Assembly: GCA_021157845.1 (NCBI GenBank)
Contig: JAGGVU010000008.1
Location: 1-37,813 of the forward strand
DNA length: 37,813 nt
Direction: 5' to 3'
Source of the DNA: Candidatus Aenigmatarchaeota archaeon
Lineage (GTDB): Archaea; Aenigmatarchaeota; Aenigmatarchaeia; GW2011-AR5; JAGGXF01
Shown: positions 1,480 to 2,063 of the stretch, one piece after another
Layout: each line of letters starts with the position of its first letter
Position numbering within the stretch: the stretch's first letter is position 1
The notes under the pieces: model-generated
Databases searched by the model: none
The model's input: only the letters and a program-made list of their open reading frames with translations
Told to the model about the DNA's origin: nothing
Position numbers and translations under genes: made by a program

Positions 1480-1515
1480 GAATAGTTTTTATATTCCTTT
1501 TATCAATTATTAATT

Positions 1516-1617
1516 GCGGCAATGATTTAACCGTCCCGGTGCGAGAACAGGTTAGCACCAAAATGCGCATGGAATTCGATGAACATATGGGTAGCTAATG
1601 AGCCGCCTTATATTTTT
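1516..1617 (+). ncRNA. Candidate structured RNA or 5' leader: kink-turn-closed terminal stem plus H-type pseudoknot
   Basis: GCGGC(1516-1520)/GCCGC(1602-1606) terminal stem; C/D-type K-turn elements AAUGAU and AUGA at its inner end; UAACC(1528-1532)/GGUUA(1550-1554) and GGUGC(1538-1542)/GCACC(1555-1559) form an H-type pseudoknot; TATA-like TTTTTATATT ~25 nt upstream; T5 tract at 1613-1617. Confidence 0.5.
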
Positions 1618-1631
1618 CATAAGTGGCATAA

Positions 1632-2063
1632 ATGCGAAAAGGAAAGGAATTTTACAATAAAATATATAGCCAATTTCTTGAGCTTGCAAAAAAAGGAGCA
1701 TCTGCCAAAGAAATATCCAAGAGCTTAAACATAAGTTATTCAACTGCGTATGCCTGGCTCGTAAAAAAAAGAAAACCAAAAAACAGCGCGTTAATGGAAT
1801 TCAGGAATTTTCTAAGAAAAAATGGCCCAACAGCAGCAAGCGAATTAAAGAAAAAAATACCAAAACATAACGAGTTTTACCATATATCCAGCAAAAGGGG
1901 GCTTGGAATAAGGCGTATGCACATAAAGGGCCTTCGTCTCGGCCAATATGCATATTGGTATTATCTCGATGGGCAAGAGGAATTACTAAAAAAAAGAATA
2001 AAGAGCCTAGTTAAAAAATATAAGAAAGCTAAAGAAAAAATTATTAAAACAATTGAATTTTAG
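1632..2063 (+). CDS. Small helix-turn-helix protein
   Basis: ASAKEISKSLNISYSTAYAWLVKKRKPK is an HTH; the C-terminal part is basic. Confidence 0.6.
   Translation: MRKGKEFYNKIYSQFLELAKKGASAKEISKSLNISYSTAYAWLVKKRKPKNSALMEFRNFLRKNGPTAASELKKKIPKHNEFYHISSKRGLGIRRMHIKGLRLGQYAYWYYLDGQEELLKKRIKSLVKKYKKAKEKIIKTIEF

Follow-up and report, generated by a model that had tools for sequence, protein, structure and literature searches.

Locus and genomic context

The window, by which we mean the whole stretch of 37,813 nt that was analysed, corresponds to contig 10 in a genome of 718 kb. It carries a gene for a small HTH protein, whose homologues all come from Candidatus Aenigmatarchaeota (DPANN) and share many invariant residues beyond the HTH part. 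Just upstream of this gene lies a predicted RNA with the layout of an archaeal box C/D sRNA. The partner proteins of that RNA class are encoded in the same genome, with the fibrillarin and Nop5 genes adjacent to each other and an L7Ae gene also present. The features of the locus are as follows, with the basis for each assignment.

1489–1494 (+): TATA-like promoter element TTATAT; fixed offset among free-standing homologues
1516–1606 (+): whole box C/D sRNA, predicted mature RNA of ~91 nt; homologues, covariance models R1 and R2, covariation
1516–1520 (+): terminal stem, 5' strand GCGGC; covarying stem
1522–1528 (+): box C, AUGAUUU (consensus RUGAUGA); alignment
1529–1540 (+): D' guide, 12 nt; 1530–1540 pairs over 11 bp with 23S rRNA ACUGGGGCGGU
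1541–1544 (+): box D', GCGA; D'1–C'6 pair
1545–1577 (+): expanded D'–C' spacer, 33 nt; alignment with relatives
1579–1585 (+): box C', AUGAACA; alignment and D'1–C'6 pair
1586–1597 (+): D guide, 12 nt; 1589–1596 GGGUAGCU pairs over 8 bp with 23S rRNA AGCUACCC
1598–1601 (+): box D, AUGA (consensus CUGA); alignment and covariation
1602–1606 (+): terminal stem, 3' strand GCCGC; covarying stem
1613–1617 (+): T5 tract, possible archaeal terminator; sequence only
1632–2063 (+): small HTH protein gene; neighbour kept within the order, outside the RNA

Architecture of the RNA

Box and guide coordinates in the window were obtained from alignment with the two nearest relatives, G001 and G002, which carry a homologue at the same place, 5' of the same HTH gene. 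The G001 homologue is GGCGAUGAAGAAACGUCCCAGUGGGAGGCAACGAUGACCGCAUGGGUAGCUUCUGAGCC, and that of G002 is nearly identical; both have the textbook form of an archaeal box C/D sRNA and align with the window RNA through all boxes and both guides. The initial annotation of this DNA had described a terminal stem, GCGGC/GCCGC, closed at its inner end by a box C/D kink-turn, and both elements are present. The kink-turn consists of an AAU bulge, tandem G.A pairs and a U.U, with U1527–A1598 replacing the usual G-C pair, and an internal C'/D' motif accompanies it. Boxes C, D and D' of the window RNA deviate from consensus, a point against a box C/D identity; the departures are compensated. The guides, 12 and 12 nt long, match the archaeal guide optimum of 12 nt (PMC8413462). 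Free-energy folding of the whole RNA gave a value no better than that of shuffled sequences (z = −0.9), as expected for guide RNAs, in which the guides are single-stranded. Box C/D sRNAs are usually 50–70 nt long, and longer ones exist, e.g., in the tRNA-Trp intron. The window RNA, at ~91 nt because of its 33-nt spacer, lies beyond this range, which is a typical value and not a defining requirement.

Homologues and covariation across the phylum

Covariance model searches revealed exactly one copy in each of 56 genomes and, after refinement, in 87 of the 156 genomes of the phylum. The homologues were mostly 60–72 nt long, with 12 nt from box C to box D' in 50 of 55 and 12–13 nt from box C' to box D in 49 of 53. 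Box D itself varied among relatives (CUGA 15, UUGA 12, AUGA 11, GUGA 6, and others).

Covariation was computed on 85 distinct homologues for the terminal stem and the C6–D1 pair. Standard pairs occupied 97.6% of these cells, compared with 6–48% when the partners were slid, and 81 double-sided changes were counted, in an alignment that was fitted to these four pairs and whose register was set by the boxes and guides. The kink-turn layout was likewise above chance across the homologues. The A-U pair that had been singled out as unusual in the window is one state of the freely covarying C6–D1 pair (GC 35, UA 25, AU 13, CG 7, GU 1, other 4). Its internal counterpart, D'1–C'6, which the model did not include, was Watson–Crick in 48 of 54 relatives, with four pair types represented.

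The RNA had not been recognised as a known Rfam family, and our Rfam scan agreed, yielding no match in the window at the gathering score, while permissive scans were blank at the sRNA. DNA similarity searches in the same genome and in the family retrieved only promoter-like and chance matches. Among these, a 92% match to the core in G001 (L010) was rejected because of its unrelated context.

Promoter and relation to the HTH gene

The previously noted TATA-like box, TTATAT, lies 28–33 nt 5' of box C and ~25 nt 5' of the predicted RNA 5' end, and the T5 tract described downstream of the RNA is also present. At least five of six positions between −33 and −28 from box C were A/T in 56 of 63 free-standing homologues, compared with about one third elsewhere upstream, which backs a promoter belonging to the RNA itself. 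The copies located inside 23S rRNA genes (see below) lack the TATA box, the A/T pattern being found in 2 of the 23 and the motif in none.

The initial annotation had also offered the RNA as a riboswitch-like leader, and we considered a leader of the HTH mRNA, either riboswitch-like or controlled by L7Ae, in which the terminal stem would compete with a hairpin at 1602–1627 acting as an expression platform. Such a leader would account for the 26-nt distance from the RNA end to the HTH start codon in the window and for the HTH gene being nearby at 17 of 56 homologous loci; however, the distance at those loci ranges from ~20 to >1000 nt, the gene lies once on the opposite strand, and most homologues lack it, with 23 of the 87 copies sitting in 23S genes. 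Furthermore, the 1602–1627 hairpin had no conserved counterpart among the homologous loci, and conservation fell on the boxes and on the guides matching 23S rRNA, not on a platform. With variable gene distance, an opposite-strand case and residence at other genomic sites, the leader and its switch were rejected, and we consider this reading extremely improbable.

Guides and predicted 23S rRNA targets

In the 23S rRNA of the same genome as well as in that of G001, the D' guide matched ACUGGGGCGGU best, the window duplex comprising 11 bp including two G.U pairs. The D guide paired with AGCUACCC over 8 bp in the window and 9 bp in G001. Matches of the guides to 16S rRNA were weaker than those to 23S rRNA. 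The two targets lie ~190 nt apart, both in 23S domain V, the D target being the further one. The fifth guide position (N+5) points to G2251 for the D' guide and to U2438 for the D guide, in E. coli 23S numbering taken on MG1655 rrlB. G2251 is part of the P-loop, where the CCA end of the P-site tRNA is bound, and U2438 lies close to the peptidyl-transferase ring.

Shuffled rRNAs reached the window scores in 2.3% of cases for the D' guide, 27% for the D guide and 0.3% for both jointly, and the target evidence from this single genome is therefore suggestive, not conclusive. Among 56 homologues, D' guide positions 4 and 5 and D guide positions 2, 5 and 6 were invariant, and most other changes within D' positions 3–11 and D positions 2–8 retained a Watson–Crick or G.U pair with the target. 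It is this guide conservation and kept pairing across the family that settle the targets. Both guides were retained in 76 of the 87 copies.

The box architecture, covariation, guide–target fit, promoter and protein genes are supported by computation. The RNA at 1516–1606 is almost certainly an archaeal dual-guide box C/D sRNA with its own TATA promoter, predicted to guide 2'-O-methylation of 23S G2251 and U2438. The second alternative given in the initial annotation, a structured ncRNA that is plausibly an L7Ae-bound sRNA, was the right one. From the sequence we infer expression of the window sRNA, assembly of its RNP and methylation. Once 1516–1606 had been transcribed from the TATA promoter of the RNA, two kink-turn-type motifs would form, one from the terminal stem and boxes C and D, the other from boxes D' and C', and L7Ae would bind both. 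Nop5 and fibrillarin would then join the L7Ae-bound RNA, and the RNP would place 2'-O-methyl groups on the 23S rRNA nucleotides that face the fifth guide base counted upstream from D' and from D, namely G2251 and U2438. Because one RNA would bind both of these sites, it may also assist the folding of the region.

That possibility can be taken further, to a box C/D RNA whose main task would be to bridge two parts of domain V and chaperone rRNA folding, in place of guiding methylation. The binding of the two guides to separate domain V sites would fit this role, which has been proposed for other archaeal dual guides (PMC7994747, PMC4644070). However, both guides kept an invariant pairing at position 5, the predicted methylation position, in 56 of 56 sequences, which is what a catalytic role would predict, and genus g46 has changed its D' guide while keeping its D guide, so bridging of these two sites is not universal. 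We regard a mainly chaperone function as unlikely and retain the methylation guide as the preferred reading.

Comparison with known guide systems

The window RNA shares with the archaeal dual-guide C/D sRNAs of Pyrococcus, Sulfolobus and Nanoarchaeum a terminal stem, C/D and C'/D' motifs, two 12-nt guides, the N+5 rule, rRNA targets, and the accompanying fibrillarin, Nop5 and L7Ae genes. Unlike in those sRNAs, where these pairs are a fixed G-C, C6–D1 and D'1–C'6 here swap freely among Watson–Crick pairs; the D'–C' spacer, moreover, has 33 nt in the window RNA and reaches 83 nt elsewhere in the family, which has no Rfam entry. The RNA is of a kind already known, of which it is a somewhat divergent member. 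What appears to be new in the family is residence in introns of its own target, an exchangeable kink-turn pair and an expandable D'–C' loop. Free exchange of the kink-turn pair may help to find C/D sRNAs overlooked by strict RUGAUGA/CUGA searches, and the D'–C' loop, which is usually short, evidently tolerates inserts of up to 83 nt.

The predicted modification concerns the ribosomal P-loop in an uncultured phylum. In bacteria, Gm2251 is made by RlmB, a protein-only methyltransferase that acts without a guide RNA; RlmB and the window sRNA would thus address the same P-loop nucleotide, the former without and the latter with a guide. C/D sRNAs of three other archaea have also been predicted to target the equivalent of G2251 (PMC4644070). 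Those sRNAs share with ours the predicted P-loop nucleotide; a companion U2438 guide, as in the window sRNA, was not seen for them in the text consulted. The 8-bp D duplex taken by itself would fall short of the nine-pair criterion of PMC4644070.

The long D'–C' spacer and the proposed pseudoknot

The D'–C' spacer is 33 nt long in the window, compared with 6 nt in G001 and G002. The initial annotation had drawn an H-type pseudoknot in this region, and its two 5-bp helices can indeed be written (1528–1532/1550–1554 and 1538–1542/1555–1559). On the 5' side, their strands correspond to the D' guide edges together with box D'; on the 3' side, they fall within the spacer and are absent from the nearest relatives. 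Among dinucleotide shuffles of the RNA, 26% held some 5+5-bp H-type pseudoknot within 60 nt; one with a 3'-strand gap of ≤2 nt occurred in 9% of whole-RNA shuffles and in 3.4% when the insert was shuffled. Because no relative shares the window spacer, the pseudoknot lies beyond covariation support. Compensatory changes had been anticipated for the pseudoknot and the terminal stem alike; the stem covaries, and the pseudoknot helices are not conserved. A covarying pseudoknot aptamer was accordingly rejected, its 3' strands being absent from the nearest relatives and its occurrence near the chance level.

These pairings bear on a further reading, in which the C/D sRNA is self-inhibited or switched in this species by its spacer, which would pair either with the D' guide, giving the pseudoknot, or with the D guide, giving the minimum-energy hairpin. 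Both alternative pairings are present in the sequence, and the window spacer does not form a hairpin of its own (p = 0.79; z = 0.9), unlike most long spacers of relatives. The shuffles nevertheless place the chance expectation between 3.4% (insert) and 9% (whole RNA), and a spacer shared by no relative offers no covariation in favour. Self-inhibition is in our estimate quite improbable. The 33-nt spacer is a lineage-specific extension of the D'–C' loop.

Long D'–C' spacers recur in the family, reaching 83 nt, even between close relatives (L038/L044; L045/L057). Those of the relatives mostly form strong hairpins, through which the D'/C' motif becomes a closed kink-turn. The spacers of L044, L058, L035 and L076 contain independent hairpins with a common GACG...CGUC core. 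L038 and L044 are almost identical apart from the hairpin, and small mobile inverted repeats are conceivable.

Copies inside 23S rRNA genes

An Rfam scan of three odd homologous loci revealed an archaeal LSU rRNA match spanning the sRNA, and alignment of these loci placed the sRNA as an insertion in 23S near E. coli position 2306, between its own two targets. No tRNA genes were found in the window or near the odd loci. Across the family, 23 of the 87 copies lie inside 23S genes, at four sites:

E. coli 23S ~2306 (2306/2307; 12 copies): L062, L071, L077, L081, L116–L119, L124–L126, L128
E. coli 23S ~2477 (3 copies): L059, L079, L127
E. coli 23S ~2534 (1 copy): L121
E. coli 23S ~2597 (2597/2598; 7 copies): L037, L056, L068, L075, L115, L122, L123

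A canonical bulge–helix–bulge (BHB) was identified at the exon junctions of 21 of the 23 intronic copies (exceptions L117 and L121), each junction being the best candidate within a short range and held at the same 23S position for all copies of a site. In this motif the 5' exon pairs over 4 bp with the 3' part of the intron to give the central helix, and the 3-nt bulges are cut after the second base; in 19 of those 21 copies the inner helix has at least 5 bp. The central helix at 2306 shows compensatory changes (CGGG/CCCG, GUGG/CCGC, CUGG/CCAG, GAGG/CCUU), and the predicted excision restores the intronless 23S sequence of G001. The smallest sRNA-bearing introns are 88–109 nt long, with little content beyond the sRNA. 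Each genome yielded a single match, so that no copy besides the intronic one was detected in these genomes.

From these junction sequences we infer splicing of the intronic copies. The sRNA family is likely to shift between free-standing promoter-driven genes and BHB introns of the target 23S gene. In ~22 Aenigmatarchaeota genomes, the spliced-out and probably circular intron would then be the guide for its own host 23S rRNA at G2251 and/or U2438, so that guide dosage, like rRNA splicing, would be linked to the synthesis of rRNA. Such an intron would be for rRNA what the tRNA-Trp intron guide is for tRNA, and it is seen at no fewer than three intron sites. With a guide placed at several sites in introns of the very rRNA to be modified, the link between archaeal introns, circular RNA and rRNA modification becomes directly testable.

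Residence of such a guide in an intron of its own target rRNA was not found described. A literature search for C/D guides in rRNA introns, with thin coverage of subscription journals, returned none. The only precedent found was the pre-tRNA-Trp intron box C/D RNA sR50 (D'Orval 2001 and Singh 2004, as cited in PMC7994747). Like the intronic copies of the relatives, sR50 is a C/D guide whose target RNA also contains it, within a BHB intron. The host of the intronic copies, by contrast, is 23S rRNA with several intron sites, and the window copy stands free and has a promoter.

In genus g46, the P-loop guide has been lost from all five intronic copies (L118, L124, L125, L126 and L128); they carry a different D' guide and keep the U2438 guide. 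In G016, the sRNA (L076, 1527–1627, minus strand) lies ~250 nt upstream of a 23S gene and on the same strand as that gene, probably in the 16S–23S spacer, a possible further rRNA-linked home. The 23S rRNA gene of the window genome (L015, G000:C13:9832-14359) contains two large inserts of about 770 and 709 nt, the second of which lies immediately downstream of GGGGAUA, at E. coli ~2449/2450 and 11 nt beyond the U2438 target region. Their open frames, 174 and 209 codons long, look by eye like LAGLIDADG homing endonucleases.
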